Made by a program: the position numbers and the translations under genes. From the NCBI RefSeq assembly GCF_026241195.1, contig NZ_JAPFQO010000011.1, positions 62,001 through 126,000 of the forward strand: 64,000 nt of DNA, in the 5' to 3' direction. The stretch is from Pontibacter anaerobius. Lineage in GTDB: Bacteria; Bacteroidota; Bacteroidia; Cytophagales; Hymenobacteraceae. This document shows, in pieces, positions 1-64,000 of this stretch. Within the stretch, counting starts at the first letter, position 1. Each line of letters starts with the position of its first letter. The notes below the pieces were generated by a model. It was given only the letters and a program-made list of their open reading frames with translations. It searched no databases and had not been told where the DNA came from.

Positions 1-63
1 ACAAAACGCATGGTGGCGTGATACCCTTACCTGCCATGTATGGACAAAGACAAATATAAAACT

Positions 64-216
64 ATGGGAAATTTACTTTACATCATCGCCGTAGTGCTGG
101 TGATCTTTTGGCTGATCGGCTTCCTGGGATTCCCGGATGCTGTTGGCGGAATAATTCATGTGCTGTTGGTGCTAGCCGTTGTTGCGGTGCTGTTGCGCCT
201 AATCAGGAGTGCTTAA
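64..216 (+). CDS. lmo0937-family (DUF5670) small membrane protein, copy 1
   Basis: This 50-residue protein starts MGNLLYIIAVVL and is almost entirely two hydrophobic helices, at about residues 4-20 and 27-46, joined by a short turn with FLGFPDAVGG. That pattern and the length match the lmo0937/DUF5670 family of tiny membrane proteins, whose biochemical role is unknown. The next gene (280-429) is a near copy, so the pair is a tandem duplication and probably co-transcribed, with only 63 bases between them. It is too short for usual ORF cut-offs, but the conservation between the two copies at protein level supports real coding. Confidence 0.85.
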   Translation: MGNLLYIIAVVLVIFWLIGFLGFPDAVGGIIHVLLVLAVVAVLLRLIRSA

Positions 217-279
217 CCCTCAGCGTGTATTTACGTTAAAAGAAAAAAATCAACTCAAACACTATAAATAGACAAAACT

Positions 280-429
280 ATGGGAAATTTATTGTATATA
301 ATAGCTGTGGTACTCGTGATCATCTGGCTGATCGGTTTCCTAGGATTCCCTGATGCAGTTGGTGGTCTGATTCACATTCTGCTAGTGATCGCAATTATTG
401 TAGTGCTGCTTCGCCTCATACGGGGTTGA
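280..429 (+). CDS. lmo0937-family (DUF5670) small membrane protein, copy 2
   Basis: This 49-residue protein is nearly identical to the product of 64-216: both begin MGNLLYIIAVVLVI and both end in LLRLIR plus one or two residues. The differences are mostly conservative (F/I, V/I, L/I), and many codons differ silently, which indicates purifying selection on the protein. It has two predicted membrane helices and no signal peptide. The gene ends just before a strong bidirectional terminator. Its function is unknown; members of this family are often described around stress or envelope genes, but nothing in the sequence proves a role. Confidence 0.85.
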   Translation: MGNLLYIIAVVLVIIWLIGFLGFPDAVGGLIHILLVIAIIVVLLRLIRG

Positions 430-449
430 TAAAAGCCTTACTTTAAAAT

Positions 450-487
450 AAAATGGGCTGCCATTAGATTGGCAGCCCATTTTTTAT
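450..487. terminator. bidirectional intrinsic terminator
   Basis: An 11-base stem (ATGGGCTGCCA / TGGCAGCCCAT) closes a 6-base loop. It is flanked by A-rich sequence on the left and TTTTTT on the right, so it can end transcription from the plus-strand small membrane genes and from the minus-strand gene that stops at 501. Confidence 0.9.
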
Positions 488-500
488 GCTCACTCGTACA

Positions 501-1214
501 CTATCTTCTTGTAAAAGGAACGTTAAACCCTACCCGTATCACCGGGTTACTATAGGGGTTTATAGGGTCATCGTTCCCATTATACAGCAGCAGCATATCA
601 AAATACCCGTTATTGGAGAAACGCTGGCGGTAGCCAATTCCAATCATAGGTATGGTTAAGGCTGTGCGGTCAATATGCCGTCTTCCGGTCACGTCATAGT
701 AAGGTACTGCTACACTTAACACCTCTGCCTCAGCATGAGCTAGTACTGCACCATCTCCAATATTGAACATCTCAAGTTGCGCAAGCCCGCGACCCCCATA
801 GTGGTGCAGGTTAAAGCCCTCGCCGCTCTCGTAGTGGTACACACCGCCCACACCCGCATACAGCTTCGGTGTAAGGGCATAGCTTATGGTTGGCAATAAC
901 GAGATGCTGGTGTAAGTGCCAAATTGCAGGCCAAAGCTTCCGCCAAAGTATAACCTGTCGATAAAACGCAGCTGCTCCTCGGGTTGCGCTTCCCTTTCCT
1001 GCTGTTGCACTACCTCCGGTTCCGGCTCCGGCTGTTCTCTTACCCGTGGCTGCGGTCGTGGCCTTGGCTGCTCCACAGGGGCAGGAGGCCCGGTAGGCAG
1101 TTCCGGTTTGCGGTAGGTGGTGTCAGGCACCTGTGCAGCGGCCCCTGTGCTTGCAAACAGTACAAACAAAAGCGGCAACAAAAGAGGAGTAAGGTGGCGC
1201 GAAGGCGTCAGCAT
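501..1214 (-). CDS. Exported protein with proline-rich linker and outer-membrane beta-barrel-like domain
   Basis: The 237-residue product begins with a classic signal peptide (about residues 1-28, hydrophobic core LLLPLLFVLFAS, then GAAAQ). A linker of about 35 residues rich in Pro, Glu and Arg follows. The rest, from about residue 85, alternates polar and aromatic residues in short strands (for example GGSFGLQFGTYTSISLLP and YAGVGGVYHYESGEG), as in 8-stranded outer-membrane barrels. No named family is recognised. The gene lies 31 bases downstream of the ABC-F gene on the same strand, so the two are probably one transcript ending at the terminator at 450-487. A periplasm-spanning linker plus barrel is an inference. 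Confidence 0.65.
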   Translation of the reverse strand: MLTPSRHLTPLLLPLLFVLFASTGAAAQVPDTTYRKPELPTGPPAPVEQPRPRPQPRVREQPEPEPEVVQQQEREAQPEEQLRFIDRLYFGGSFGLQFGTYTSISLLPTISYALTPKLYAGVGGVYHYESGEGFNLHHYGGRGLAQLEMFNIGDGAVLAHAEAEVLSVAVPYYDVTGRRHIDRTALTIPMIGIGYRQRFSNNGYFDMLLLYNGNDDPINPYSNPVIRVGFNVPFTRR

Positions 1215-1245
1215 AGTTCTGCAGGTATAGTTTTTAACTTGTCCT

Positions 1246-3210
<1,965 letters not shown>

Positions 3211-3681
3211 ATGGCTTCTGCTAAAGTCTCTTTTCAGAACATTGCTATTAAGTATGGTTTACTGGTAGGTGTGGCACACATAGTATATTTTCTGGTGATG
3301 CGCGTACTAGGCCTAACCGACATTGTTGAGCTCTCTTACCTGAGCGGTATATTCCTTATCATCGGAATTGTAATTGCCATCTCTAAGTTCAAACGGCTGA
3401 ACAATGGCCTCATTAAGTACTTTGATGGGCTGGGGATAGGCTTGATCACCGCCTTTACATCATCGCTTATAATTGCGTTGTTCCTGGTGCTGTACGTAAC
3501 GGTGCTGGATAAGACGTATCTTGAGGCGCTGAGCGCAAGCTCTCTTTTCCCGGAGGGGCTTTCTGTGCTCTCTATGTTCTGGATAGCTGTAGCTCATGGC
3601 ACATGGCCGGGGTTCATCATCGGCTTTATTGCCATGCAGTGGTTCAAGAGCCCGGAACATACCATGCCTAACCAAGTATAA
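3211..3681 (+). CDS. DUF4199-family membrane protein, first of tandem pair
   Basis: A 156-residue integral membrane protein with four hydrophobic segments, at roughly residues 14-34, 41-58, 75-98 and 118-142. The opening (IAIKYGLLVGVAHIVYF) and the amphipathic loop around FDGLGIGLITAF are typical of DUF4199, a family largely confined to Bacteroidota and of unknown function. The gene directly downstream (3734-4192) encodes a paralogue with the same topology and the same C-terminal FIAMQWFK motif, so the two arose by tandem duplication and probably share a transcript. Confidence 0.8.
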   Translation: MASAKVSFQNIAIKYGLLVGVAHIVYFLVMRVLGLTDIVELSYLSGIFLIIGIVIAISKFKRLNNGLIKYFDGLGIGLITAFTSSLIIALFLVLYVTVLDKTYLEALSASSLFPEGLSVLSMFWIAVAHGTWPGFIIGFIAMQWFKSPEHTMPNQV

Positions 3682-3733
3682 AGCTGCGTACTGCTAAGAA
3701 CGATTACCGAAACACCCTTAACTAAATACTACT

Positions 3734-4192
3734 ATGGAAAAGATTGGCCTCAAATATGGCCTGCTTACAGCTGCGGCACTGATTATATATTTTTTTCTGA
3801 TGAAGCTGCTGGGGCTGGTGCACGTCATTGAGCTGCGTTTCCTGAACGGCCTGATTATGGCCGTGGGCGTAGTTCTCGCCATTCGGGCATATAGACTGGT
3901 AATGGATGGCCAGATTTCATACTTCAAAGGGCTTGGCACCGGAATTATAACTGCTGTGGTGGGCACCGTTATTTTTGCCGCTTTTATGGTGGTGTATGTA
4001 AAAACAGGTGGGGAGTCGCTGATTGAAATGCTGTCGGCGGAGCGATATTTTGGCGAGAGGGTAGAGGCGACGCCGGGCGTGGTCATCTTCTCGGTGCTGT
4101 TCCTGGAGGGCATCATTTCCGGTGTGATGATCTCCTTTATAGCCATGCAGTGGTTTAAGCAACGCCAACACAAGGTGCCCGGGGCTCCTTAA
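3734..4192 (+). CDS. DUF4199-family membrane protein, second of tandem pair
   Basis: A 152-residue, four-helix membrane protein paralogous to the gene just upstream. Shared landmarks are KYGLLTAAALIIYF near the N-terminus, YFKGLGTGIITA in the middle and SFIAMQWFK near the C-terminus. Only 52 bases separate the two genes. As with the first copy, the DUF4199 family has no established function. The gene ends 33 bases before a long perfect palindrome that separates it from the convergent gene at 4289-4522. Confidence 0.8.
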   Translation: MEKIGLKYGLLTAAALIIYFFLMKLLGLVHVIELRFLNGLIMAVGVVLAIRAYRLVMDGQISYFKGLGTGIITAVVGTVIFAAFMVVYVKTGGESLIEMLSAERYFGERVEATPGVVIFSVLFLEGIISGVMISFIAMQWFKQRQHKVPGAP

Positions 4193-4225
4193 TAGCATAG
4201 TATATATAATATATAGGATTTACTT

Positions 4226-4279
4226 AGCACAAACAGAAGGGCCGGTCATGAATTCATGACCGGCCCTTCTGTTTGTGCT
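4226..4279. repeat. 54-base perfect palindrome between convergent genes
   Basis: The left arm runs from 4226 (AGCACAAACAGAAGGGCC...) to 4252 and the right arm from 4253 to 4279, and they are exact reverse complements over all 27 positions with no spacer. The centre is TGAATTCA. It sits between the stop codons of the convergent genes ending at 4192 and 4289. It could act as a transcription terminator on both strands, although neither flank has a strong T-tract. Confidence 0.9.
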
Positions 4280-4288
4280 GTATGTTCT

Positions 4289-4522
4289 TTACTTAACTAT
4301 ACTGTCTGGCCGTTGAATAATCTGTATCACAACTTCATGCAGGTCACCTTCTTTGTCCTCCAGCTTAAAGATAACCATCGGGTTGTCAGCATCATGGATA
4401 GATTTTGTATCTATTACCCGCTCACCTTCGTCCAATTTTGTTTCTAGTTGATCCGTCAGGTCTTTCACGGCTCTTGCGAAAGTTACCTCTAGTTTACTCG
4501 GGTTGTAAAACCTTGTCCTCAT
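4289..4522 (-). CDS. Small conserved-looking hypothetical protein
   Basis: The 77-residue product has no signal peptide and no membrane segment. It reads as a short alpha/beta protein: a basic N-terminus (MRTRFYNPSKLEV), an acidic helix (KDLTDQLETKLDEGERV), then two beta-like stretches (PMVIFKLEDKEG and HEVVIQIIQRPD). I do not recognise the family. It stands alone, convergent with the DUF4199 pair, with about 310 bases of AT-rich sequence upstream. Coding is supported by codon structure and by its position between a palindrome and a promoter-sized spacer. Confidence 0.6.
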   Translation of the reverse strand: MRTRFYNPSKLEVTFARAVKDLTDQLETKLDEGERVIDTKSIHDADNPMVIFKLEDKEGDLHEVVIQIIQRPDSIVK

Positions 4523-4832
4523 ATCGTTTTTATTAAATCGAAACCTTATTAATTAAGGTGTTTCGCGGTTATACTTGCAAAAAATCCTATTAAAGAATTC
4601 ATATATAAGGTATACCTGAAACAAGGGCTATGGTTACGAAAGTGACGGGTTATTTAGTGAATACTTGTAGGCTATAGCTTTAATAAATAATATTTTGTGC
4701 GACAATGTAAAAAAGTTAAAAAAAATACATAAAAAATATAATATTCAGATATTTTTCCTAACTTGCGCAAGCATTGTACGTTTAAGACAGCTAAAGGATC
4801 ATTTAACTACTAACACGTATTATACTTTCAAA
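4523..4832. other. AT-rich divergent promoter region
   Basis: These 310 bases lie between the divergent genes at 4289-4522 and 4833-5228. The region is strikingly AT-rich, especially 4680-4760 with runs of A and T, and carries one TATACTT word at about 4573 and another just before the downstream start. No ORF or hairpin terminator is evident; it most likely holds the two promoters. Confidence 0.45.
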
Positions 4833-5228
4833 ATGAAAAAATCTTTACTAATACTTGTACTGGTGTTGATAGGAGCAACTAGCTATGCCCAGCGTTTACA
4901 CCCAACTGACGACGCGCTGGATATGGTTGTGTTATCGATGGAGGTAGACGGGCCGACCATGGCAAGTATGGAAATGAAAGAGGAACTGAGCCTGACGGAG
5001 CAGCAGTTCAACAAGGTAACTCAGCTAAACAACAGCCGTTACCAGCAGCTGCAGCAGGCAGAGGCAAGTTTCTCCACCGACCCGCAATCGCGCTCTAAGG
5101 AGCTAAGAAATATTCAGCTGAAAAACGACAGGAATCTGATTGGCGTACTGACACAGAAGCAGCTGCGCGAGTACCAGAAACTGGAAGGAAGGCTGGATTC
5201 GCAGCTGATTACCGAGAACGAAGAATAA
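4833..5228 (+). CDS. Small exported protein, Spy/LTXXQ-like
   Basis: The start at 4833 gives 131 residues with a textbook signal peptide (MKKSLLILVLVLIGATSYAQ, cleavage after AQ). An upstream in-frame start at 4695 would add a tail with no such signal and is less likely. The mature part is helical and glutamine-rich, with a LSLTEQQFNKV motif near residue 51 and LTQKQLREYQKL near residue 109, the two LTxxQ-type helices seen in Spy/CpxP-like periplasmic chaperones and their Bacteroidota relatives. A periplasmic stress or chaperone role is therefore plausible but not shown. It ends at a terminator shared with the convergent lipoprotein gene. Confidence 0.7.
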   Translation: MKKSLLILVLVLIGATSYAQRLHPTDDALDMVVLSMEVDGPTMASMEMKEELSLTEQQFNKVTQLNNSRYQQLQQAEASFSTDPQSRSKELRNIQLKNDRNLIGVLTQKQLREYQKLEGRLDSQLITENEE

Positions 5229-5248
5229 GATAGTATTGAAAACCATAA

Positions 5249-5288
5249 AAACAGCAAAGCCCGGGTTTTACTCGGGCTTTGCTGTTTC
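5249..5288. terminator. bidirectional intrinsic terminator
   Basis: AACAGCAAAGCCCG and CGGGCTTTGCTGTT form a 14-base stem with a short TTTTA-type loop. The right arm overlaps the last codons of the minus-strand gene at 5268, so one hairpin serves both convergent genes. Confidence 0.85.
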
Positions 5289-5675
5289 TGTTACTGGCTT
5301 ATAGTAGGTTATTTCAGATACTTTGCCGAGGGAGTTTATGCGCACCTGCACGCGGTTTGCCTCCGACATTCGTGTGCGCCGGTCCTGACACTGGGCACCG
5401 GGCTCTATGTAATAGAAGTAGATGCGCTGGCTGCGCTCCATCAGTTCCTCGCTATCGGGCTTGCCCAGTACGTTGCGCACCACATACTCTTTCTTGCCAT
5501 ACATCTCTTTCCGGATCAACTCAAAGTCATCCACCAGTTCGGCTCGCTGGTTGTCGCACCCAAAGCGGTCGTTTTTCCAGGTGGTGCTGTCAAAGTCTTT
5601 CAGGCTATCTGGTGTGGTGCAGGCTGCCAGCAGCAGGAGGCCTATACTTTGCGCTATAATAGATCGTTTTGCCAT
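5268..5675 (-). CDS. Small lipoprotein, possibly BamE/SmpA-like fold
   Basis: A 135-residue lipoprotein: a basic start, a hydrophobic core and lipobox LAAC with Cys19. The mature region contains RKEMYGKKEYVVRNVLGKPD, which resembles the helix-then-'LGxP' turn of SmpA/BamE-type small lipoproteins, followed by strands YFYYIEPGAQC and RVQVRINSLGKVSEITYY. It has two further cysteines (about residues 40 and 96) that could pair. The BamE comparison is a guess from local pattern only. The gene stands alone, convergent with the Spy-like gene. Confidence 0.65.
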   Translation of the reverse strand: MAKRSIIAQSIGLLLLAACTTPDSLKDFDSTTWKNDRFGCDNQRAELVDDFELIRKEMYGKKEYVVRNVLGKPDSEELMERSQRIYFYYIEPGAQCQDRRTRMSEANRVQVRINSLGKVSEITYYKPVTETAKPE

Positions 5676-5943
5676 AGTCTTAATTTACTGCCATAAAGTT
5701 GCAGCAAGATCTTTTGCCACACAAGGCAAAGCCAAAATAATCGGTAAATTGTATTTATACTATATATTGTTAGATAGTAGTGGTAATTTGCGGCCTTAGC
5801 AGCTATAGCTATTGCATTTTATATAAAAACGTCTTAGTTTAAGTCTATAGATGCTATATAGAATTTACAGCCATGGAACAATTTGCACGGTTTTCCATGT
5901 TGCTTTAGCCGAACTCATATAACAGAAAGCTTAATCTAAACTT

Positions 5944-6756
5944 ATGGTAAGAGTGTTTTTAACTGCAATCACCCTCGGTCTTCTTTCCTTTACTTCTGCT
6001 GCCCCTGATCATGCAGTTGCCACACCGGCTGCTACTTTGGCGGATACAAAAGAGGTAATCGCAAATAACGCTGGTGGTGCTGCGGCTGCAAAAGAGGCGG
6101 CTTTTGACAATCATGTGCAGGAGCTTTACAATGCGGCAGGTTTAAAACAGAAAGGCCTGTCTTACGAGGTCTTTGAGAAGGCTGTGGTAGGGTTTCAGAA
6201 CTTCAAGCGCCTGCAGGTGGTGGCCCCGAAGAAATCCATAATTTCAGTAGTCGATTTTACAAAGCCCAGCTCACAGAAGCGCCTCTGGATTATAGACCTG
6301 AACGCCAAAAAAGTACTTTTTAATACACTGGTGGCACATGGCCGCAATACCGGCCAGGATAAAGCCACCCAGTTCTCCAACACTTCCGGTTCTTATATGA
6401 GCAGTCTCGGCTTTTACCTGACCGACGCCACTTACTTTGGTAAGCATGGCCTCTCACTGCGCCTGCAGGGGATGGATGAGGGGTATAACTCCAATGCCAT
6501 GGAAAGAGCCATTGTGGTACACGGAGCCGATTACGTTAGCGAGAATTTTGTAAAGCAGTATGGCCGTCTGGGCCGCAGCCTGGGGTGCCCATCCGTACCG
6601 AAGGAGATCTCCAAAGATGTGATTGAGACGATCAAAGACAAATCAGTGCTGTACATCCACGGCAACGACAGCAAGTATACTTCCCGCTTCTTGGATGACA
6701 GCAAGGCAGTGGAATACTATGCCGCCAAGGCCGCCACTGATGTGATGAGCATCTAA
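5944..6756 (+). CDS. Murein L,D-transpeptidase catalytic-domain protein (YkuD_2 type)
   Basis: A 270-residue exported protein with a signal peptide (about residues 1-20, ending in SFTSAAPDHA). The catalytic region begins near residue 95 (SVVDFTKPSSQKRLWIIDL) and contains the family landmarks: VLFNTLVAHGRNTG, the His motif IVVHGADYV near residue 183, and the active-site Cys motif GRSLGCPSVP near residue 209. These identify the PF13645-type L,D-transpeptidase-like family of Bacteroidota and Proteobacteria, which is expected to act on peptidoglycan in the periplasm. A gene-length 5' region (5676-5943) without an ORF precedes it and a strong terminator follows. Confidence 0.85.
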   Translation: MVRVFLTAITLGLLSFTSAAPDHAVATPAATLADTKEVIANNAGGAAAAKEAAFDNHVQELYNAAGLKQKGLSYEVFEKAVVGFQNFKRLQVVAPKKSIISVVDFTKPSSQKRLWIIDLNAKKVLFNTLVAHGRNTGQDKATQFSNTSGSYMSSLGFYLTDATYFGKHGLSLRLQGMDEGYNSNAMERAIVVHGADYVSENFVKQYGRLGRSLGCPSVPKEISKDVIETIKDKSVLYIHGNDSKYTSRFLDDSKAVEYYAAKAATDVMSI

Positions 6757-6775
6757 GTCGGTCTCTCTGAAAATA

Positions 6776-6817
6776 TAAAAGCCACCTGCTATACTTTTAG
6801 CAGGTGGCTTTTTTTTG
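6776..6817 (+). terminator. intrinsic terminator with TATACTT in loop
   Basis: AAAGCCACCTGCTA and TAGCAGGTGGCTTT form a long stem followed by T8. The loop and upper stem contain the window-wide word TATACTT. Confidence 0.9.
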
Positions 6818-6835
6818 TACGTATCCGTTAGATGG

Positions 6836-7033
6836 TTATGCTTCGTCTTTCGTGGTTTTAACCAGATTTATTCCTGCGAAGAAGAAAATCAGGCCAACCA
6901 CAAACGGAACGGCGGAAGTATACTTGCCTACCACGCCGCCATCACCCCCCATCAGGAAGGCGTAGGCACCCCATATGATACCCACAATACCCAATACTGT
7001 GAGAATGGTGCCGAATGTTCGTTTCTGGTTCAT
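6836..7033 (-). CDS. Small two-helix membrane protein
   Basis: Starting at the internal ATG (MNQKRTFGTILTV) gives 65 residues. A start seven codons upstream (7054) is possible. Two hydrophobic helices (about residues 6-25 and 38-55) flank a glycine-rich loop (MGGDGGVVG). There is no signal peptide and no recognised family, though small double-helix inner-membrane proteins of this size are common in Bacteroidota. It is convergent with the L,D-transpeptidase and uses the same terminator region. Confidence 0.6.
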   Translation of the reverse strand: MNQKRTFGTILTVLGIVGIIWGAYAFLMGGDGGVVGKYTSAVPFVVGLIFFFAGINLVKTTKDEA

Positions 7034-7269: not shown

Positions 7270-8082
7270 ATGAGAGGAGCAATAAAATTTATAATCGCAC
7301 TGCTGGTGGCTGCTGTGTCGTTAGTTACCTATTGGTGCAGTTCAGAGCAGAATGAGTTCACCGGCGAGGAACAGCGCGTGGACATGACCGTGGAGCAGGA
7401 GATAGCGCTGGGCCTGCAGGCGGCCCCGCAGATGGCGGAGCAGTACGGCGGCCTGCACCCCGACCAGCAGGCAGCCCAAGAGGTGAAAGCCATCGGGCAA
7501 CGGCTGGTGCAGAGCACACGGGTAAAGGAAACACCTTATGAGTTTGATTTTCATTTGCTTGCCGATGAACAGACGGTAAATGCCTTTGCTTTGCCTGGTG
7601 GCCAGATATTTATCACGGCTGGTTTGCTGAGGCGCCTGGAGTCTGAGGGGCAGCTTGCCGGGGTGCTAGGCCATGAGATTGGGCATGTGGTGGCGCGGCA
7701 CTCGGCGCAGCAGCTGGCCAAGGCAAAGCTAACACAAGGTCTTACCGGCGCAGCCGCCATCGCTACGTATGATCCGGACAACCCTGCCAGCCGATCCGGA
7801 GCTGCAGTGGCCGCCATGATCGGGCAACTGGTAAACATGAGCTATGGCCGTGAAGATGAACTGGAGTCGGATGTGCTGGCGGTGGAGCTTACCGGAAATG
7901 CAGGGTATGATCCCCGTTCCATGGTGCGGGTGATGCAGATACTGGAGGAGGCGAGCGGTGGGGCAGGTGGTGGACCTGAGTTCATGCAGACGCACCCTAA
8001 CCCAGGCAATCGTGTGGCAAAGATCGAGGCCGCCATACAGGAGCAGTATCCGAATGGTCTGCCTGAGGGCTTAACCGAATAA
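7270..8082 (+). CDS. M48-family metalloprotease, exported
   Basis: With the start at 7270 (MRGAIKFIIALLVAAV) the 270-residue protein has an N-terminal membrane anchor or signal segment. The zinc site HEIGH is at residues 135-139, and the third ligand is likely the Glu in REDELESD near residue 200. FALPGGQIFITAGLL upstream of the site and MQTHPNPGNRVAKI near the C-terminus are hallmarks of periplasmic M48 proteases of the LoiP/BepA type. These cut damaged outer-membrane or periplasmic proteins. A second M48 gene lies at 16018-16851. The longer ORF start at 7222 would place polar sequence before the anchor and is less likely. Confidence 0.88.
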   Translation: MRGAIKFIIALLVAAVSLVTYWCSSEQNEFTGEEQRVDMTVEQEIALGLQAAPQMAEQYGGLHPDQQAAQEVKAIGQRLVQSTRVKETPYEFDFHLLADEQTVNAFALPGGQIFITAGLLRRLESEGQLAGVLGHEIGHVVARHSAQQLAKAKLTQGLTGAAAIATYDPDNPASRSGAAVAAMIGQLVNMSYGREDELESDVLAVELTGNAGYDPRSMVRVMQILEEASGGAGGGPEFMQTHPNPGNRVAKIEAAIQEQYPNGLPEGLTE

Positions 8083-16014: not shown

Positions 16015-16017
16015 GTT

Positions 16018-28218: not shown

Positions 28219-31200
28219 ATGCTGCAGCACCACACCCTGCGCCCGAAACAGGCACTGAACAAGGCTTACCTGAAACTCAAGACATCCCGGGAGGATATAG
28301 AACGGTTTAAGCGGGCGCTTACGGCCTTGCTGGATAGTATAAACCTGCAGGAAACGGAGGAGCATGCCAAAAACCACCTGCGCGATTTTCTGCGGTTGAC
28401 GTTTTATGATAAGTACGGCGTGAACACCAAAGGCAAGACCGACCTGGTGATCCATACCGGCAACACAACCAAGAGCAACGCCGGCGTGCTGCTGGAGGTG
28501 AAGCGGCCCACCAACAAGGCCGACATGCCCACCACCGACAACCTGAACTACAAGGCCACCCACGAGCTGCTGCTCTACTACCTGCGCGAGCGCCTGGAGC
28601 ATAACAACCACGACATGCGCCACCTCATCGTGACCAGCGTGCACGAGTGGTTCGTGTTTGATGCCCTGGAGTTTGACCGCCTGTTTTTCCGGAACACGCA
28701 GCTGAAGAAGGACTTTGCCGACTGGAGCGCCGGGCGAAAGGCCAGCGGCAGCACCGACTTTTTCTACAAGGAGATTGCCGCGCCCTACCTGGCCAAGCTG
28801 CAGGAAAGTATAAACTATACTTACTTCAACCTGAAAGACTACGAGAAGCCGCTGCGCAACAAAAACCCCAAGGACGATGTGAAGCTGGTGGCGCTATACA
28901 AGCTGCTCTCGCCGGCGCATTTGCTCAAAGAGCCCTTCGCCAACGACGCCAACTCCCTGGACCGCGACTTTTACCTGGAGCTGCTGCACATTATAGGCCT
29001 GGAGGAAGTGAAGGAGGGAGGCCGCAAGCTGATACGCCGCAAGGAGAAACCCAACCCCGGCTCGCTGCTGGAGGCGGCGTACCAGAAACTGCGCTCCGAA
29101 GACCTGATCTCAGGACTCGACAACCCCTACAGCTACGGCAGCACCCGCGAGGAGCAGCTGTTTAACGTGGCGCTTGAGCTGTGCATCACCTGGATGAACC
29201 GTATCCTGTTCCTGAAGCTGCTGGAGGCGCAGCTGGTAAGCTACCACCACGGCGACAAGAAGTATAACTTTATGGGCACGGCCAACCTCAAAGAGTTCGA
29301 CGACCTGAACGAGCTGTTTTTCGACGTGCTGGCCGAGCGCCCCGAGAACCGCAGCGCCAGCGTAAAGCACAGGTATAGCCACATCCCGTACCTCAACTCC
29401 TCGCTGTTCGAGACCACGGCGCTGGAGAAACGCACGTTGCGCATCTCTAACCTGAAAGACCGCAGCCTGCTGCCGCTTTACCCGCAAACCGTGTTCAGGC
29501 GCACCTTGGGCAAGGATTTTACCGGCAAGCACCCCGAGCTGCACACGCTGGAGTACCTGCTGCGCTTCCTGGGTAGCTACGACTTCGGGGCCGAGGGCAA
29601 GGAGGAGATACAGGAGGAGAACAAAACGCTGATAACGGCCTCGGTGCTGGGGCTTATTTTTGAGAAGATAAACGGCTACCGCGACGGCTCCTTCTACACG
29701 CCCGGTTTCATAACCATGTACATGAGCCGCGAGGCCATCCGCCGAGCGGTGGTGCAGCGTTTTTCCGAGAAGTATAACTGGAACATCGATGCCAATGGAG
29801 CCGATGCCGGTTTCGAATCCCTGCAGATTCACATTTCCAGGGCAAACGGCATGGCGCAGCTGCAAGAGTATAACCAGCTGATAAACAACCTGCGCATCTG
29901 CGACCCGGCCGTGGGGTCGGGGCACTACCTGGTGAGCGCCCTGAACGAGCTGATTGTGCTGAAGCATGAGCTGCGGCTGCTGCTGAGCCGCCAGGGCAAG
30001 CCGCTGCACTACGGAAGTATAGAAGTGCAGAACGATGAGCTGATCGTGACGGACCAGCACGGCGAGCCTTTCAGCTACAGCGTAACCGAGCACCCCGACG
30101 GCCAACGAAGTATAAACCCGCAGGTGCAGGAGCTGCAGGAGGCGCTCTTCCACGAGAAGCAGACCATTATAGAGAACTGCCTTTTCGGGGTGGATATTAA
30201 CCCAAACTCCGTGAAGATCTGCCGCCTGCGCCTTTGGATAGAGCTACTCAAAAATGCCTATTATACCGGCCCCGGAAGTATAAACGGCGAATTGAGCAGC
30301 CCGGTGTGCTACGCCAATACCAGCGGTCTGCGCGAGGGCTTTAATGATGAAGAATCCTGGAAATCAGTTAATAATCCTGATTCAGACAAGTATACCCAAC
30401 TGCAGACGCTGCCCAACATCGACATTAACATAAAGCAGGGCAACTCGCTGCTGAGCCGCTACCCGCTCTCCGCCGACCTGCACGAGGCCTTTGGCAAAAA
30501 GGGACACAGTTTGCAGGCCTACCGCGAGGCCGTGTACAAGTATAAGCACACCAACTCCAAGGCTGATAAAAAGCAGCTCCTGGCTTTTCTGGAGGAGATA
30601 AAGCAGGGCTTTAAGACCACGCTGGCCAACAACGACCCGCTGCGTCGCGACATGGCCAAACTGCGCGGACAGATTGCCGTGATGCAGGACCCGGACCTGT
30701 TCGGGGCCAAAAAAGTAGACAAGAAAGACCTGCAGCAAAAGCAGAAAACCCTGCAGAAACTGGAGGACGAGCGCGACGCCATCGAGACGAACAAAGTATA
30801 CGAGGGAGCTTTTGAGTGGCGCTTCGAGTTTCCGGAGGTGCTGGACGAGGAAGGCAAGTATAAAGGCTTCGATGTGGTGATCGGGAACCCGCCATACATA
30901 CGGCAGGAGGAGCTGGGCAACTTTAAAGTATACTTGCAGAAGCAGTTTCAAACATATGCAGGCACCGCCGACCTGTATGTATATTTTGTGGAGCGCGGCA
31001 TAGAACTGCTTCGCGAGGGCGGACAGTTCAGCTACATTTTGCCGAACAAATGGATGCGTGCCGGCTACGGACAGGCGCTGCGAGCCTGGCTGCAAAACCA
31101 TACCCTGGTGCAGCTGCTAGACTTCGGCGACTTGCCAGTATTTGAAGAAGCTACCACTTACCCGCTCATACTTGCCGTGGCAAAGTATAAACCCGAGGCT

Positions 31201-32232
31201 GGCTATACTTTTGAGGCCGCACCTATAAACACCCTGAAGTATGAGCAGGGGCTGGAGGCATACGTGCAGCAGCACAAGTATGAAGTACAAGCCGACCTGC
31301 TACCCGACTCCGGCTGGACGCTCTCCGACAGCACCGCACAGCAACTGCTGGAGAAGCTGAAAAACACCGGCACGCCGCTTGGAGAGTATGTGGAGGGTAA
31401 AATATACTACGGAATTAAAACGGGTTATAACGAGGCTTTTGTAATTGATGAAGCCACCAAAGACCAACTTATACTTGAAGACCCACGAAGTGCAGAAATC
31501 ATTAAGCCGTTTCTGGCTGGCCGTGATGTGAAGCGGTATCAACCACCGAAGTCGGAAAAGCATCTTATACTTTTCCCTTCCGGATTTACGAAAGAACGTG
31601 CCGGTAATGTAAATGAGCAACAAGCGTGGCAGTGGCTGCAGGATAATTATACTTCTGTAGCAGCATTTATGGCTCCCTTTGCTGAAAAGGCTAGAAAGCG
31701 TTTTGATAAAGGTAATTACTGGTGGGAGCTAAGAGCTTGTGCTTATTATGATGAGTTTGAGAAACCGAAGATTCTTTTCCAAGAGATTGCTACTTTCAAT
31801 GCTTTCACTTGGGATGTGACCGGTGCTTATTCTAACAACAAGACTTTTATTGTCCCTAATGTAGATTTATACTTGCTAGGACTCCTTAACTCAAAAGTAG
31901 TTTGGTATTTCTTAAATCAAGTAACTTCTAAACTACAGGGTGGAGCTTTAGCAATGCAAACACCTTATACTTTTCAGATTCCTATTGTATCTGATGACGA
32001 AGAAACGAAAGCAAGTATAACGCAGCTGGTGGAGCAGATACTAAGTATAAAACAAGCCGATGCCGCAGCCGATACGTCGGGGCTGGAGGCCGAGGTGGAT
32101 GTGCTGGTGTACCGCCTCTACCACCTCACCTACGAGGAAGTGCTGCTGGTGGAGCCGGGCTTTGCCATGTCGCGCGAGGCGTATACGTTAACCCCAGACC
32201 TCGCAGCAACGGGAGGCAGTGCAGGTGCCTGA
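28219..32232 (+). CDS. Type IIG restriction-modification enzyme (Eco57I-like methylase, TaqI-like specificity domain)
   Basis: A 1337-residue single-chain restriction-methylation enzyme. The N-terminal region has a PD-(D/E)XK-type site, Asp75 with Glu93-Val-Lys95 (GKTDLVIH ... LLEVKRP). The adenine-methylase core has motif I DPAVGSGHYL (from residue 562) and motif IV IGNPPYIRQ (Asn890). The C-terminal part (about 1010-1290) is the probable target-recognition domain and ends with a short helical tail. Partner genes (separate REase, specificity subunit, BREX genes) are absent, so it would act alone. Rows of the coding sequence are about 65% GC, but 31381-32010 is strongly AT-rich (row 31741 is 33%), matching the recognition domain. 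Recognition sequence unknown. Confidence 0.9.
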   Translation: MLQHHTLRPKQALNKAYLKLKTSREDIERFKRALTALLDSINLQETEEHAKNHLRDFLRLTFYDKYGVNTKGKTDLVIHTGNTTKSNAGVLLEVKRPTNKADMPTTDNLNYKATHELLLYYLRERLEHNNHDMRHLIVTSVHEWFVFDALEFDRLFFRNTQLKKDFADWSAGRKASGSTDFFYKEIAAPYLAKLQESINYTYFNLKDYEKPLRNKNPKDDVKLVALYKLLSPAHLLKEPFANDANSLDRDFYLELLHIIGLEEVKEGGRKLIRRKEKPNPGSLLEAAYQKLRSEDLISGLDNPYSYGSTREEQLFNVALELCITWMNRILFLKLLEAQLVSYHHGDKKYNFMGTANLKEFDDLNELFFDVLAERPENRSASVKHRYSHIPYLNSSLFETTALEKRTLRISNLKDRSLLPLYPQTVFRRTLGKDFTGKHPELHTLEYLLRFLGSYDFGAEGKEEIQEENKTLITASVLGLIFEKINGYRDGSFYTPGFITMYMSREAIRRAVVQRFSEKYNWNIDANGADAGFESLQIHISRANGMAQLQEYNQLINNLRICDPAVGSGHYLVSALNELIVLKHELRLLLSRQGKPLHYGSIEVQNDELIVTDQHGEPFSYSVTEHPDGQRSINPQVQELQEALFHEKQTIIENCLFGVDINPNSVKICRLRLWIELLKNAYYTGPGSINGELSSPVCYANTSGLREGFNDEESWKSVNNPDSDKYTQLQTLPNIDINIKQGNSLLSRYPLSADLHEAFGKKGHSLQAYREAVYKYKHTNSKADKKQLLAFLEEIKQGFKTTLANNDPLRRDMAKLRGQIAVMQDPDLFGAKKVDKKDLQQKQKTLQKLEDERDAIETNKVYEGAFEWRFEFPEVLDEEGKYKGFDVVIGNPPYIRQEELGNFKVYLQKQFQTYAGTADLYVYFVERGIELLREGGQFSYILPNKWMRAGYGQALRAWLQNHTLVQLLDFGDLPVFEEATTYPLILAVAKYKPEAGYTFEAAPINTLKYEQGLEAYVQQHKYEVQADLLPDSGWTLSDSTAQQLLEKLKNTGTPLGEYVEGKIYYGIKTGYNEAFVIDEATKDQLILEDPRSAEIIKPFLAGRDVKRYQPPKSEKHLILFPSGFTKERAGNVNEQQAWQWLQDNYTSVAAFMAPFAEKARKRFDKGNYWWELRACAYYDEFEKPKILFQEIATFNAFTWDVTGAYSNNKTFIVPNVDLYLLGLLNSKVVWYFLNQVTSKLQGGALAMQTPYTFQIPIVSDDEETKASITQLVEQILSIKQADAAADTSGLEAEVDVLVYRLYHLTYEEVLLVEPGFAMSREAYTLTPDLAATGGSAGA

Positions 32233-37247: not shown

Positions 37248-37280
37248 TTGGCGCCAGTTAAAGGAAACAGTGGCTATGAA

Positions 37281-37370
37281 AGTATAAGTATAAGTATAAG
37301 TATAAGTATAAGTATAAGTATAAGTATAAGTATAAGTATAAGTATAAGTATAAGTATAAGTATAAGTATA
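37281..37370 (+). repeat. Tandem hexanucleotide array (AGTATA)15
   Basis: Fifteen perfect copies of AGTATA occupy 90 bases without a single interruption, preceded by AA and followed by CGGATG. The unit is the same word that is dispersed hundreds of bases apart throughout the window. It lies in the gap between composite repeat copy 2 and the DinB-family gene. Confidence 0.97.
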
Positions 37371-48126: not shown

Positions 48127-50313
<2,187 letters not shown>

Positions 50314-56994: not shown

Positions 56995-57132
56995 GTCCTG
57001 TTTTTTTCAGATGCCGTAAAGGTAAGGTACACCACAAACTATGTTTTCACGTTTATTGTTATACTTCCCAGGCGTCATAAGATTTTGATGTTTGAGGAAC
57101 AAAGTATAATTTAGAATTTAAATCAGATGATC

Positions 57133-58693: not shown

Positions 58694-58815
58694 AGTTTTC
58701 TCCTTTATAGGTGTGTGTACGAAGTATAACGTTCGGTTATCGGTTTATGCTTACAAATATAAGCACTCTTTTTTAAGCGGTTTATACTTTAGCGGAATGG
58801 CTGAAAAGAGGAATG

Positions 58816-60744
58816 CTAGCGCAGAAGCGTAATGGTGCCGGTTCTCTTTTTAGTAGTGCCGAAACTGGTCTGGAAGGAGATTGTGTAAGCGTAGGCTCCT
58901 GCAGGCGCTTCGCGGCCGTTGTCCGTTCCGTCCCAGGCGGCGTCAGCCTCAGTGCCTTCATAAACAACGCTGCCGGAGCGGTTAAACACGCGCAACGTAT
59001 AGCCGCTGAAGAACTTGCCCTGTATCTCGAAGACGTCATTCAGACCGTCCCCGTTCGGTGTAAAGGCACTCGGGATATACACCAGCGCGTCTTGCTCTAT
59101 CTCCACCATATTAGAGAACGAAACACCGGTGCCATTCTGAGACATTGCCTTGATGCGGTAGCGCAACACAGGAAGGTCGTTGCTCAGGGTTTGATCTGTG
59201 AAGGTGCGGCCGGTGGCGGGGTAGCTGGTAACAAGGGTACCGTTCTCGTCCAGCAGCTCTACACTATACTGTCCCACACCATCCGGAAAACCGGTGAATG
59301 CCGACCAGCTGAGGTTTATGCTTCCGTCTGTCTGCCGTTCGGCCTCAAGTATAATAGGGCAGGTGATGTTGCTGGCAGGCGATGTGTTGCCGCAAACGTT
59401 TGTGAAGGTGCTGCGGTAGCAAACAGGCTGTCCGTTTATACTTTCATCCAATATATTTGTCTGCTGTGTCTGCGCCAACTGCTGGTAGGGGCCACCCTTT
59501 ATACTTTTCTCGATGGTTGCTACGCTTACTGTTTCGCCCTCGGGCAGCTGCAGCGTAAGTTCCACCTGGTTGCTCAGGTTAAAGCTGGATAGTAAGTATG
59601 GCGCGGCAGGTACGGCAGTGGAAGTTACCTCAGCATCACGCGTGGCGGATACAGAAGTATAGCGGTCGCCCTGCGGATCGTTGCCTGTGCCCACTACGTA
59701 ATAGCTGTAGGTCTGGCCGCAGGTAACTTCATTGTCGGTGAATGCGGAGGTGGTGCCGGGCAAGGTTTGAAGCAGGGTGCCGTTGCGGTATACCTCAAAG
59801 GCGCTGAAGTCTGGTGAATATTCCCAATTAAGCTGCGCCTGCTCTTCGTCCGTCTGCGCATTCAGCGAAATACCACTAATAACATTCGAGTTGATTGAAA
59901 CCTCTCCGCAGGCATCCACTGGGCGAGCTAGGTACCAGGTACCATCTACAGTGTTCACATCTCTGATGGTTTGAGTAAGTGTAGCACCAGTAACATCCTG
60001 TACAACACCAATCTCAATGTATGGCTGCCTGAAATCGCCAGTGTACTGCTCTATGGTATAAGCGTAACCGGGCACCAGCCCCGACAACTCCAGTTGTATG
60101 CTTCCATTTTCTGCCTGTTCCAGCACGGTCAGTTTCTCTATCTGTGTTGGGTTTTCTCTGTCCAGCACAGGAAGTGTGGAGACGCTTTGCGAACTTATGC
60201 CCTGGCAGGTGGCGCCATTGTAGCTGCCGGTAAGTGTTACGGTGAAACTCCCCTGAGAACTATAAGTATGGGTGATGGTGCTGCTGCCGTCGGTCTGCTG
60301 TGTTGTTCCGTCTCCAAAATCGAAAGTATAAACATCATACTCCGGGTTGGTGATGGTGAAGGAAACAGCACCACTGGCACAGCTTTGGGTGGTAAAAACG
60401 GGCTCGGGTGCTGCTTTTACCTCGAAAACTCTTGAAACGGTGTCAGTAGAGGTGCTGCCATAATTGGCTATCTGCAAGACTTTATACCTGCCGGGTGCTG
60501 TGTAAGTATGTTTCTTGTTTGTGGATGAGGGAGTGGGAATGGGCGACTCTCCTTTGTAATCAAACACATAGTACTCCTTATCGTCATCAACCTTGTCATA
60601 GCAATCCTTAAAGGTTACTTCCTGGCCCACGCAAAGCACTTCTGTTTCCTCGCCGGCTGCGTTTAGCGCTGCTATGCACTTTTCATCCTGCGCCCAGCAA
60701 GCGGTGGCTAAAAGTATAAACCATATGGTAAGCAGGTATCTCAA
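58816..60744 (-). CDS. PKD-domain surface protein with T9SS type B sorting domain
   Basis: A 642-residue exported protein: signal peptide about 1-18 (ending CWAQ). A PKD-like domain (about 100-185, TFDFGDGTTQQTDGSS then ITHTYSSQGSFTVTL) is followed by fibronectin-like beta domains (about 190-540). At the end is the gliding-motility-associated type B C-terminal domain: YIPSAFTPNGDGLNDVFEI near residue 553, then LRVFNRSGSVVYEG and GTDNGREAPAGAYAYTI. This identifies cargo of the type IX secretion system, so it is cell-surface or secreted. Adhesin-like function is a guess. Confidence 0.9.
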   Translation of the reverse strand: MRYLLTIWFILLATACWAQDEKCIAALNAAGEETEVLCVGQEVTFKDCYDKVDDDKEYYVFDYKGESPIPTPSSTNKKHTYTAPGRYKVLQIANYGSTSTDTVSRVFEVKAAPEPVFTTQSCASGAVSFTITNPEYDVYTFDFGDGTTQQTDGSSTITHTYSSQGSFTVTLTGSYNGATCQGISSQSVSTLPVLDRENPTQIEKLTVLEQAENGSIQLELSGLVPGYAYTIEQYTGDFRQPYIEIGVVQDVTGATLTQTIRDVNTVDGTWYLARPVDACGEVSINSNVISGISLNAQTDEEQAQLNWEYSPDFSAFEVYRNGTLLQTLPGTTSAFTDNEVTCGQTYSYYVVGTGNDPQGDRYTSVSATRDAEVTSTAVPAAPYLLSSFNLSNQVELTLQLPEGETVSVATIEKSIKGGPYQQLAQTQQTNILDESINGQPVCYRSTFTNVCGNTSPASNITCPIILEAERQTDGSINLSWSAFTGFPDGVGQYSVELLDENGTLVTSYPATGRTFTDQTLSNDLPVLRYRIKAMSQNGTGVSFSNMVEIEQDALVYIPSAFTPNGDGLNDVFEIQGKFFSGYTLRVFNRSGSVVYEGTEADAAWDGTDNGREAPAGAYAYTISFQTSFGTTKKRTGTITLLR

Positions 60745-60815
60745 ACTCTCTTTTGTATTGGCTTTACGATTAAATTAATAAAAGTACGGCACAAAAGTTT
60801 AGCGGCCAGCAAAAG

Positions 60816-60851
60816 AAAAGCCTCTGCCACAACCATGGCAGAGGCTTTTTA
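60816..60851. terminator. bidirectional intrinsic terminator
   Basis: AAAAGCCTCTGCCA pairs with TGGCAGAGGCTTTT around CAACCA. It lies after the hutH stop (60869) on the minus strand, and the T-run is followed directly by TATACTTT. Confidence 0.85.
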
Positions 60852-60868
60852 TACTTTAAAAGTATGAT

Positions 60869-62359
60869 TTACAAAGTATAAAGCCTGAGGAAGCTAATGC
60901 TTTGCTTGATGTCGTGGTGCAGCACACGGTCTGTGGAGACGAACGGCACCTGTTCCCGGTATACCTTTACCAGTTGCTCCAGCGGCTCCGAGGTCTGCAG
61001 TGGCCTGCGGAAGTCCATGGCCTGAGCGGCATTCATTAGTTCGATGGCCAATACACGCTCCGTGTTGTGCACCACCTGGTAAGCCTTGGTAGCGGCATTG
61101 GCACCCATACTCACGTGGTCTTCCTGGTTATGGGAGGATGGTATGGTATCCACAGAGGCCGGTGTACAAAGCTGCTTGCTCTGGCTCACGATGGAGGCTG
61201 CCGTGTACTGGCTGATCATAAAGCCGGAATTGAGCCCCGGCTCCGCCACCAGGAAAGCCGGCAGGCCGCGCTGTCCGGATATTAATTGGTAAGTTCTGCG
61301 CTCTGATATACTGCCTAGCTCGGCCACGGCTATTGCCATAAAGTCGAGCGCCAGCGCCAGTGGCTGACCGTGGAAGTTGCCCCCGGATATGATCTCGTCC
61401 TCCTCCGGGAAAATGTTTGGATTGTCGGTTACGGCATTAATCTCTGTCAGGAAAACCTGCTCCACGTAGTTCAGAGCGTCTTTAGAAGCACCGTGTACCT
61501 GCGGAATGCAACGGAAGGAGTAGGGGTCCTGCACATGCTGCTTCTCCTGCTCAATCAGCTGGCTTCCTGCCAGCAGGTTTCTCATTACTTCTGCGGTTTG
61601 CAGCTGCCCCTGGTGCGGCCTTACCTGGTGGATAAGCTGGTTAAATGGCTCTATGCGTCCGTCATAAGCATCCAGCGACAAAGCACTAACCAAATCGGCT
61701 TGTTTTGACAGTCGTTTGGCCATCAATAGGTTATGTACACCGTAGGCGCTCATAAACTGGGTGCCGTTCAGGAGGGCAAGACCTTCCTTCGCCTTCAGGG
61801 CAATTGGTTCCCAGCTGAACATTTCCAGCACATGGCGGCTCTCCAGCTTCATTCCCTGGAAGTATACCTCGCCCAAACCGATGAGCGGCAGACACAGGTG
61901 CGCCAGCGGAGCCAGGTCGCCGCTCGCCCCTAATGAGCCTTGCTGGTACACCACCGGGTACACATCGCGGTTATAGAAGTCGATCAGGCGCTTTACTGTC
62001 TGCAGTTGCACACCGCTATGCCCATAGGCCAGCGACTGGATCTTGAGCAGCAACATGAGTTTCACCACCTCTTGCGGCACCTCGTCGCCGGTTCCGCAGG
62101 CATGCGACATCATCAGGTTGCGTTGTAGTTGCTCCAGGTCCTCAGGGGAGATTTTCTTGTCGTAGAGTGAGCCGAAGCCGGTATTTATCCCGTAAATGCT
62201 GCGGTGTGTTCCTGTAATTTTCTGCTGCAGATACTCGTGGCAACGCACAATGCGCTCCTCCGCCTGTTCCGACAGTGCCAAAGTATAATTCTCATTTAGG
62301 ATCGTGCCGATAAGCTCCAGCGTCAGGTGCTGGCTGGAGATGTGGTGTACCTGGGCCAT
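60869..62359 (-). CDS. hutH: Histidine ammonia-lyase
   Basis: A 496-residue enzyme that deaminates histidine to urocanate. The MIO prosthetic group forms from Ala145-Ser146-Gly147 in GSLGASGDLAPLAH, and YGINTGFG (56-63) supplies the catalytic Tyr. LLNGTQFMSAYGVHNLLM and the QNPYSxRC-like QDPYSFRCIPQVHGA are also present. The length is typical. hutU, hutI and hutG are absent. The gene starts six bases after the hisS stop, so the two are co-transcribed, joining an enzyme that charges tRNA with histidine and one that destroys it. Confidence 0.95.
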   Translation of the reverse strand: MAQVHHISSQHLTLELIGTILNENYTLALSEQAEERIVRCHEYLQQKITGTHRSIYGINTGFGSLYDKKISPEDLEQLQRNLMMSHACGTGDEVPQEVVKLMLLLKIQSLAYGHSGVQLQTVKRLIDFYNRDVYPVVYQQGSLGASGDLAPLAHLCLPLIGLGEVYFQGMKLESRHVLEMFSWEPIALKAKEGLALLNGTQFMSAYGVHNLLMAKRLSKQADLVSALSLDAYDGRIEPFNQLIHQVRPHQGQLQTAEVMRNLLAGSQLIEQEKQHVQDPYSFRCIPQVHGASKDALNYVEQVFLTEINAVTDNPNIFPEEDEIISGGNFHGQPLALALDFMAIAVAELGSISERRTYQLISGQRGLPAFLVAEPGLNSGFMISQYTAASIVSQSKQLCTPASVDTIPSSHNQEDHVSMGANAATKAYQVVHNTERVLAIELMNAAQAMDFRRPLQTSEPLEQLVKVYREQVPFVSTDRVLHHDIKQSISFLRLYTL

Positions 62360-62364
62360 TTACG

Positions 62365-63759
62365 TTATTTCAGTTGCGTGATGATTTCCTCTATTGTCAG
62401 GTCATGCTGCTCTCCGCGTTTCATGTCACGCAGTTTCAGCTTCCCGGATGCCATTTCCTCAGAGCCGATCAGGATCACATATGGGATGTTCTTTTGATCG
62501 GCATAGCCCATCTGCTTCTTCAGCTTGGCTGCCTCCGGGTACAATTCAGCACTAATACCGGCATCGCGCAGTTGCTGCAGCACTGGTAAGGCATACATCT
62601 CGGAGTCCTTATCGAACTGCACAATAAGGGCAGTAGTACTCTGCTGGCTGCTCTCCGGGAACAGTTGCAGCTCTTCCAGTACATCGTAAATCCGATCGAC
62701 CCCGAATGAGAAGCCTACACCCGAAACGCCCGGCAACCCGAACATGCCTGTCAGGTTATCATACCGGCCTCCGCCACTGATGCTGCCCATACTTACATTA
62801 TTCACCTTCACCTCGAAAATGCAGCCGGTGTAGTAGGAGAGGCCACGGGCCAGGGTCACGTCCAGCATCAGGCGCGGCTCCCCGGATGGGTTCTCGGCCG
62901 TTAGCGCCTTGCTTTGCAGCCCTTGCAGGTATGCCCATACTTCACGAAGGTCGTTCAGGCCGCGCTCGCCCTCTGCTGTGTTGCCAAGTATACTTTGGAG
63001 TTGCGCCAGTTTCTCTTCGTTGCTGCCGTTCAGGTCATAGAGCGGCTCTAACTTGTTAACAGCATCTACTGTTATCCCACGCTCCAGCAGCTCCTTGCGT
63101 ACGCCCTCTTGGCCTATTTTGTCCAGCTTGTCGATGGCTACGCAGATGTCGCCTTCGCGCCCTTTTTCGTCAATGGCCTCAGCAATCCCTGCCAGCACGC
63201 CACGGTGGTTTATTTTGATGGTGAAGTCAGTTAACCCTAGATCAGTCAGAGCCCCGTTGATCATCTGCACGATCTCAGCCTCGCACAGCAGCGAGTTGGT
63301 GCCCACCACGTCGGCATCGCACTGGTAAAACTCGCGGTAGCGGCCTTTCTGCGGACGGTCGGCCCGCCAAACAGGCTGAATCTGGTACCGCTTGAACGGG
63401 AAGGTAATCTCGTTGCGGTTCATCACCACAAACCGGGCAAAGGGCACAGTCAGGTCGTAGCGCAGTGCTTTCTCTGAGATCTTTCGGGTCAGATGCTTGT
63501 AGCCCTGCTCCACATCCTCTGGCTTAGTCTTAGCCAGGAAATCCCCTGAGTTAAGGATCTTGAAGATCAGCTGGTCGCCCTCATCGCCATACTTGCCAGT
63601 CAGCACCGACAGTTGCTCCATGGCAGGAGTTTCGAGGGGCAGGTAGCCAAACTTCTCGAAGGTGCGGCGGATGATGCCAAAAATATAGTTCCGTTTGGCC
63701 ACGACAGCCGGGCCAAAATCTCTTGTTCCTTTCGGTATAGATGGTTTCTCTTTGCTCAT
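62365..63759 (-). CDS. hisS: Histidine-tRNA ligase
   Basis: A 464-residue class II synthetase. Motif 1 is near FGYLPLETPAMEQLSVLTGK, motif 2 is RYREFYQCDADVVG (about 139-152), the histidine-specific loop has GLSYYTGCIFEV, and motif 3 is GFSFGVDRIYDVL. The anticodon-binding domain is the C-terminal 95 residues. The length is slightly longer than typical bacterial HisRS (about 420). It is followed immediately by hutH in the same direction, a rare arrangement. The N-terminal start MSKEKPSIPKGTRDF fits the family. Confidence 0.96.
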   Translation of the reverse strand: MSKEKPSIPKGTRDFGPAVVAKRNYIFGIIRRTFEKFGYLPLETPAMEQLSVLTGKYGDEGDQLIFKILNSGDFLAKTKPEDVEQGYKHLTRKISEKALRYDLTVPFARFVVMNRNEITFPFKRYQIQPVWRADRPQKGRYREFYQCDADVVGTNSLLCEAEIVQMINGALTDLGLTDFTIKINHRGVLAGIAEAIDEKGREGDICVAIDKLDKIGQEGVRKELLERGITVDAVNKLEPLYDLNGSNEEKLAQLQSILGNTAEGERGLNDLREVWAYLQGLQSKALTAENPSGEPRLMLDVTLARGLSYYTGCIFEVKVNNVSMGSISGGGRYDNLTGMFGLPGVSGVGFSFGVDRIYDVLEELQLFPESSQQSTTALIVQFDKDSEMYALPVLQQLRDAGISAELYPEAAKLKKQMGYADQKNIPYVILIGSEEMASGKLKLRDMKRGEQHDLTIEEIITQLK

Positions 63760-63851
63760 GCTTTTGCAGGTTTGCCGGCGAAGTTACTAAAAGTGGAGCA
63801 AAGGTGGGAGGGGAGATACAGTTTGAGGTGAAAGAGATGGCTCAGAAGTAA

Positions 63852-64000
63852 TTAAAAAGCGTGCTTGTCGCCCCTTATCACGTTGTAAACAGTGTAGAAG
63901 ATTATCTTCAGGTCCAGGAAGAAAGACCAGTTCTCAAGGTAAAAGATATCAAGCTTTACACGCCCACGGATCTGATAGTTCTCAGTTGTGTCTCCTCGGT
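63852..64000 (-). CDS. Polyprenyl glycosylphosphotransferase, C-terminal end (partial)
   Basis: Only the last 48 codons lie in the window; the rest runs off the right edge. The reading ends with RVKLDIFYLENWSFFLDLK then IIFYTVYNVIRGDKHAF, the characteristic end of undecaprenyl-phosphate sugar phosphotransferases (WcaJ/EpsL type), which start exopolysaccharide repeat units by moving a sugar-1-phosphate to the lipid carrier. The VKLD...Y.ENWS..LD core is the family signature. It is on the same strand as hisS and about 90 bases downstream of the divergent start region. Confidence 0.8.
   Translation of the reverse strand, partial: RGDTTENYQIRGRVKLDIFYLENWSFFLDLKIIFYTVYNVIRGDKHAF

Follow-up and report, generated by a model that had tools for sequence, protein, structure and literature searches.

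AAGTATA, a candidate chromosomal self-recognition word of Pontibacter with three spellings across the genus

Chi is a short, over-represented, asymmetric word that is oriented with replication. In Neisseria, inverted pairs of the DNA uptake sequence (DUS) act as terminators. The DUS of Neisseriaceae is reported to occur in thousands of copies per genome, with relatives that lack the word, dialects one base apart and a species in which two dialects are almost equally frequent (PMC3630211). The build-up of the uptake signal sequence (USS) of Pasteurellaceae has been explained by molecular drive (PMC1939737). HIP1 of cyanobacteria (GCGATCGC) is described as highly iterated, low in some lineages and without an agreed function (PMC4390886). 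Uptake words are read by the pilin ComP in Neisseriaceae and by a predicted minor pilin in Pasteurellaceae, according to two sources (PMC3868556, PMC12616744). The nearest literature case is Riemerella columbina, which is reported to prefer its own DNA and has A-rich tabulated k-mers (PMC7965970). Among the top-ranked open-licence literature, no paper was found that describes iterated, uptake-like words from Pontibacter or elsewhere in the Bacteroidota. Here we describe the word AAGTATA (complement TATACTT) in a 64,000-nt stretch of the Pontibacter anaerobius genome (contig NZ_JAPFQO010000011.1, positions 62,001 to 126,000), hereafter the window. AAGTATA may be the form taken in this genome by a self-marking chromosomal word that is common to most of Pontibacter and works like a DNA uptake sequence; we give this reading close to an even chance.

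The window contained 151 copies of the word (88 on the forward strand and 63 on the reverse). Base composition predicts 7.05 copies, and 100 dinucleotide shuffles gave a mean of 6.39 and a maximum of 15. The source genome (4,648,497 bases) contained 8,810 copies (4,586 forward and 4,224 reverse) and 385 copies of the reversed word, used as a control (188 and 197). The original prediction, made from the window alone, of a genome-wide iterated word is therefore borne out, and the excess is neither limited to the window nor close to expectation. Its hand counts of about 18 copies in the first 10 kb and about 22 in a type IIG gene compare with 17 and exactly 22. One tandem array holds 15 copies, and the remaining 136 are 22.5-fold above the dinucleotide model. 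AAGTATA ranked first among 7-mers under order-1 and order-2 models of the window. It was not in the top fifteen of a maximal-order model built from the window alone, because the excess is already present in its 5- and 6-mers. The base 3' of the window copies was most often A (99 copies), followed by C (28) and G (21), and rarely T (3), so the flank extends the core as had been suspected. AAGTATG was raised 8-fold (60 copies vs 7.3 expected). The features of the window are as follows; genes here and elsewhere were called by a crude longest-open-reading-frame (ORF) rule.

1..64000, no strand assigned: AAGTATA/TATACTT, 151 copies, of which 92 fall in ORFs of 100 aa or more and 59 (the 15-copy array among them) do not
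6673..6682, no strand assigned: self-complementary AAGTATACTT, two overlapping words
6790..6796, reverse strand: word within a terminator-like hairpin loop, a single case
6916..6925, no strand assigned: self-complementary AAGTATACTT
28219..32232, forward strand: type IIG-like gene of the Eco57I family with 22 words
30926..30935, no strand assigned: self-complementary AAGTATACTT within the type IIG gene
37280..37370, forward strand: perfect AAGTAT tandem array of 15.2 copies (15 words), a microsatellite built of the word, outside called ORFs
48127..50274, reverse strand: ligA (NAD-dependent DNA ligase), the anchor for orthologous loci
62986..62995, no strand assigned: self-complementary AAGTATACTT

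The self-complementary form had been placed at about 6674, 6918 and 30928. It begins at 6673, 6916 and 30926, with a further copy at 62986. The 10-mer ATTCCCCTCC and its complement also occurred 9 times at several places in the window (0.1 expected). The nearest ligA relatives among named genomes were Pontibacter flavimaris and P. chinhatensis (91% at the protein level).

The word is present in sister Pontibacter species, where the original prediction proposed to look, and it occurs there in more than one spelling. A first survey covered 59 genomes (the source genome, 36 others of its genus and 22 from other families of the order). Genomes of the genus contained between 786 and 11,818 copies of AAGTATA; in those from other families its count was 0.4 to 1.8 times that of the reversed word, the control. 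At the ligA loci of named species (up to 22 kb), those poor in AAGTATA were often rich in AGGTATA or AACTATA. Across 50 Pontibacter genomes these three spellings were found at about 4,100 to 13,200 copies in 39 word-rich genomes, and 11 genomes were low; classes were assigned by eye from whole-genome counts, and low means low in these three words. The AAGTATA class contained 19 genomes (at least 4,114 copies each), the AGGTATA class 12 (at least 5,748) and the AACTATA class 4 (at least 12,524). Four genomes were mixed, with AAGTATA and AACTATA at 7,552 and 8,118 (G026), 9,116 and 6,094 (G032), 5,110 and 11,674 (G065), and 10,614 and 3,531 (G071). Two of the low genomes were intermediate (G007 with 2,905 AAGTATA and G036 with 3,132 AGGTATA).

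The spellings agree with phylogeny, as those of uptake sequences do. In a ligA DNA tree of 42 rows, the 12 AGGTATA loci formed one branch (100/100). The 4 AACTATA loci formed another together with the mixed locus L026 (100/100). AAGTATA loci were scattered, with 5 changes. AAGTATA may be the ancestral spelling, judging from ligA sequences whose deepest forks are not settled. Logos were built from 1,402, 465 and 1,556 copies of the three spellings. T was avoided directly after each (0.04 in all three). The commonest next base was A after AAGTATA and G after AGGTATA and AACTATA, and the consensus faded 2 to 3 bases out from the core.

The word is conserved as DNA. Synonymous-codon shuffling within genes reduced the coding count of the window from 86 to 9.7. 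Ratios were similar in other sets (377 to 48.6, 698 to 89.7 and 518 to 57.1), which covered 400 kb of genome G021, 400 kb of G030 and stretches of three AGGTATA genomes. A protein-level cause was rejected, since this shuffling removes most coding copies. Conservation was measured in 140 kb of Pontibacter sp. FD36 (G005), compared with G063 (82% identical); these counts and those of the site comparisons below cover aligned sites only. Coding AGGTATA was kept at 126 of 175 sites vs 582 of 2,386 for permuted words, and outside ORFs at 11 of 20 vs 126 of 382. A codon-matched silent-site test counted third positions where the first two codon positions were equal. Third positions within AGGTATA words were identical in 362 of 400 cases (90.5%) vs 195.5 expected (48.9%) from the same codons elsewhere. 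They were kept in 365 of 403 cases inside words vs 1,681 of 2,797 in flanks (p=1.4e-38). The closest pair gave a smaller contrast (403 of 443 vs 338.2 expected). A weaker test scored words found in at least one outgroup; here the closest pair kept 145/180 and 145/162, permuted words 0.72 to 0.74, and permuted words with TATA 0.74 to 0.81. The codon-matched test is preferred.

Sites were also compared across 40 sequences (39 Pontibacter or Botryobacter loci and the ligA segment of the window; two Adhaeribacter and other loci were excluded). Conservation at ligA-locus pairs exceeded permuted controls in 16 of 16 comparisons, the strongest being 31/38 vs 0.33. AAGTATA sites were kept between AAGTATA species in 1,085 of 2,447 cases (0.443, vs 0.149 for identity raised to the seventh power). 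In low-word species they were kept in 143 of 1,103 (0.130), which is background (0.111 from identity alone). Non-conserved states were mostly substitutions with some indels (4 to 14% of aligned sites by group pair). Insertion of words by a mobile element was rejected on this ground and on the fading of the consensus next to the core.

Some sites are spelled differently in different clades. In 1,191 pairwise comparisons of aligned AGGTATA sites with AAGTATA species, the AAGTATA species had AAGTATA 269 times and AGGTATA 110 times; these comparisons reuse species and are not independent. Among 183 aligned coding sites pooled from 12 AGGTATA species, so that one ancestral site may count repeatedly, 66 read AAGTATA in one or more of the AAGTATA species. 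The change was synonymous at 65 of these and F to L at one. None of the 64 coding sites in the three phases where re-spelling always alters the protein was re-spelled.

Words were sparser on three of four small contigs, all four probably plasmids: 19 in 53.8 kb (G021 C2), 5 in 40 kb (G001 C2) and 0 in 5.9 kb (G031 C4). The clade-wide spellings, mixed genomes, low-word relatives, re-spelled sites, silent-site protection and small-contig scarcity fit what has been described or would be expected for uptake words (PMC3630211, PMC1939737), and together they lead us to judge a self-recognition signal for uptake or recombination the most likely explanation. There is strong support for a sequence-specific reader; its part in uptake we infer. 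A sequence-specific protein would read the word, and its specificity would have changed in two clades. Word-bearing DNA would be taken up preferentially, by an import route other than a type IV pilus, and then recombined into the chromosome. Copies would be maintained by molecular drive or weak selection.

The kinship in kind with DUS, USS and HIP1 that had been proposed holds for the genome-wide iteration, the extended flank and the copies in sister species. Like DUS, the Pontibacter word occurs in thousands of copies, with single-base clade spellings, a genome with two spellings (G026) and low-word relatives. Unlike DUS, it is 7 to 8 bp long without a CTG core, belongs to another phylum, has few non-overlapping converging pairs and occurs without a full pilus-type ATPase; its role in uptake is proposed by analogy. 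It is not classed as a DUS because the pilus feature was tested for and did not appear. It resembles USS in being iterated and asymmetric, and differs in being another, shorter word whose consensus fades so close to the core, again with no full pilus ATPase.

Several results weigh against an uptake word. ComEC and DprA are present in 50 of 50 Pontibacter genomes, word-rich and low-word alike; therefore neither tracks the word, and both were rejected as its markers. A full-length PilB/PilT/GspE (T2SSE) ATPase was not found in the 50 genomes; pilins and secretins were not searched. No reader was found among the ComEC, DprA, T2SSE, type IIG and Eco57I-family candidates in the 50 genomes, and no uptake data for Pontibacter were found in the top-ranked open-licence literature. 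The small contigs are not uniform: G021 C2 is still above chance (19 vs about 6.6), and G020 C2 is mixed, with 24 words in 40 kb (4 and 20 in its two 20-kb pieces). The silent-site test covers the AGGTATA spelling only. Conservation was weak between the window and L040 (8/25; permuted 0.27) and between L019 and L024 (21/49; permuted 0.31), and the closest pair kept 17 of 25 intergenic words vs 276 of 487 controls. The same-site signal between AACTATA and AAGTATA was also weak (26/831), and AACTATA therefore arose mostly at new sites.

T2SSE fragments were found in all 50 genomes. None covered more than 66 of the 370 profile positions, 3 of 50 genomes reached the cut-off with such a fragment, and 14 of 14 control genomes were detected. 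The fragments probably represent the Walker-A region. With fragments only, a Neisseria- or Haemophilus-type pilus is very unlikely, and the known ComP-type route is missing. Import through a type IV pilus was therefore rejected. The comEC and dprA matches of G009 and G022 contain internal stop codons, from sequencing errors or gene loss.

A less likely explanation, which we still take seriously, is a recombination or chromosome-maintenance site that is selected directly. Such a site might resemble Chi or bind a condensin or nucleoid protein, and its reader would have changed specificity in two clades. DNA-level conservation and the spellings need a reader and do not need uptake. Twenty stretches of 20 kb were sampled on each of two chromosomes, and every one contains words (40 to 89 in G030; 16 to 61 in G021). 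Like Chi, the word is short, over-represented and asymmetric. A slight excess lies on the G-rich strand (671:605, p 0.07, in G030; 418:359, p 0.04, in G021). This preference is just 53 to 54%, unlike the strong co-orientation of Chi and KOPS. An orientation with replication like that of Chi was not seen, and a strand-oriented site was rejected because words are near 50:50 on both chromosomes. The density of 1 to 3 words per kb exceeds that of Chi, and the three words are scarce in 11 of 50 genomes.

A HIP1-like methylation site appears unlikely. On this view a conserved orphan methyltransferase would write the site, and methylation-linked repair would maintain it. The high density and the loss in some lineages recall HIP1, for which a methylation-dependent mismatch-repair model has been proposed (PMC4390886). 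Unlike HIP1, a palindrome tied to orphan methyltransferases, the Pontibacter word is asymmetric and has three spellings. The logos show no palindrome, and words are non-palindromic except as overlapping pairs. In G030 such pairs account for 101 of the 1,256 gaps, and in G021 for 20 of 757. The type IIG protein of the window was rejected as a required reader. It had any match in 33 of 50 genomes and none in five word-rich ones (G022, G029, G061, G006 and G004). The Eco57I family had no match at all in word-rich G022; other methyltransferase families were not searched. The type IIG match in low-word G025 has an internal stop. The N-terminal half of the type IIG-like gene is well conserved in several species and the C-terminal half diverges, with short remnants elsewhere.

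A sequence-specific mutation or repair bias could create a word that lacks both reader and function. One-mismatch neighbours are raised in the window (AGGTATA 4.0-fold and AAATATA 3.5-fold), and substitutions dominate at non-conserved sites. A word-creating bias alone would not protect existing words, and third positions in AGGTATA change far less than codon-matched ones. Some small contigs in the same cells have fewer words. This explanation is very improbable, and a mutational signature as sole cause, one of the origins first suggested, conflicts with the protected silent positions inside words of the AGGTATA spelling.

Placement relative to genes was examined in G030 and G021. Word density was about three times higher outside ORFs (6.2 and 4.5 per kb) than inside (2.3 and 1.3). 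It was highest between convergent genes (9.3, 7.3 and 4.7 per kb in three sets). More than half of the copies lie within ORFs, on both strands. Coding copies fill all six phases, unequally; the rarest in G030 held 1 of 742. An excess on the strand of the gene was seen in G030 (461:281) and not in G021 (209:229). Words clump: in counts per kb the variance exceeds the mean in both G030 (7.6 vs 3.2) and G021 (3.9 vs 1.9). Pairs 7 to 40 bp apart are in excess, and most pairs within 60 bp share orientation. Non-overlapping converging pairs were 28 of 390 pairs within 60 bp in G030 and 22 of 193 in G021, and hairpins were barely raised; inverted terminator pairs of the DUS kind were thus not found. 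Hairpins of at least 7 bp occurred around 6/498, 6/286 and 3/162 intergenic words (1.2, 2.1 and 1.9%) vs 0.8, 1.0 and 1.1% of random positions. The copy at 6790 does lie in a terminator-like loop as predicted, and words are not generally in hairpins; a general terminator-hairpin role was rejected. A transcription signal (promoter, terminator or RNA element), which the density outside ORFs and between convergent genes might suggest, is hardly credible given the copies inside ORFs on both strands in all six phases and a hairpin excess that is slight at most.

Other words are frequent in some other genera. ACCTAGG occurred 6,321 times in Hymenobacter sp. BT559 (L043) and 6,326 times in H. setariae (L046) vs 8 and 5 copies of the reversed word, a control that includes GGATCC and may be under avoidance too. 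In five further Hymenobacter genomes the count was 80 to 666. CCTAGG was kept at 27 of 40 sites between the L043 and L046 loci vs 62 of 142 for other palindromes. Comparisons with L055 or L054 gave no excess (2/9, 2/7 and 1/12). ACGTACC is over-represented in L052 and L061 (Fibrivirga and Fibrella) and was kept at 12 of 21 sites vs 1/12 and 1/15 for hand-picked control words.

A broader proposal is more doubtful than the reading of AAGTATA itself. Pontibacter might have a pilus-independent, self-recognising system of DNA import or recombination, whose reader would have changed specificity at least twice in the genus, with chromosomal sites re-spelled at silent positions. Similar systems may exist in Hymenobacter (CCTAGG) and in Fibrella and Fibrivirga (ACGTACC). 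Uptake words are known from Neisseriaceae and Pasteurellaceae, and Pontibacter is an environmental genus of another phylum. It offers a natural experiment, with three spellings, two clade-wide changes, four mixed genomes, 11 low-word genomes and no pilus-type ATPase. The reader can be sought here by matching the gene content of genomes to their word content. The system also reveals how many sites take on a new spelling after a change of reader.

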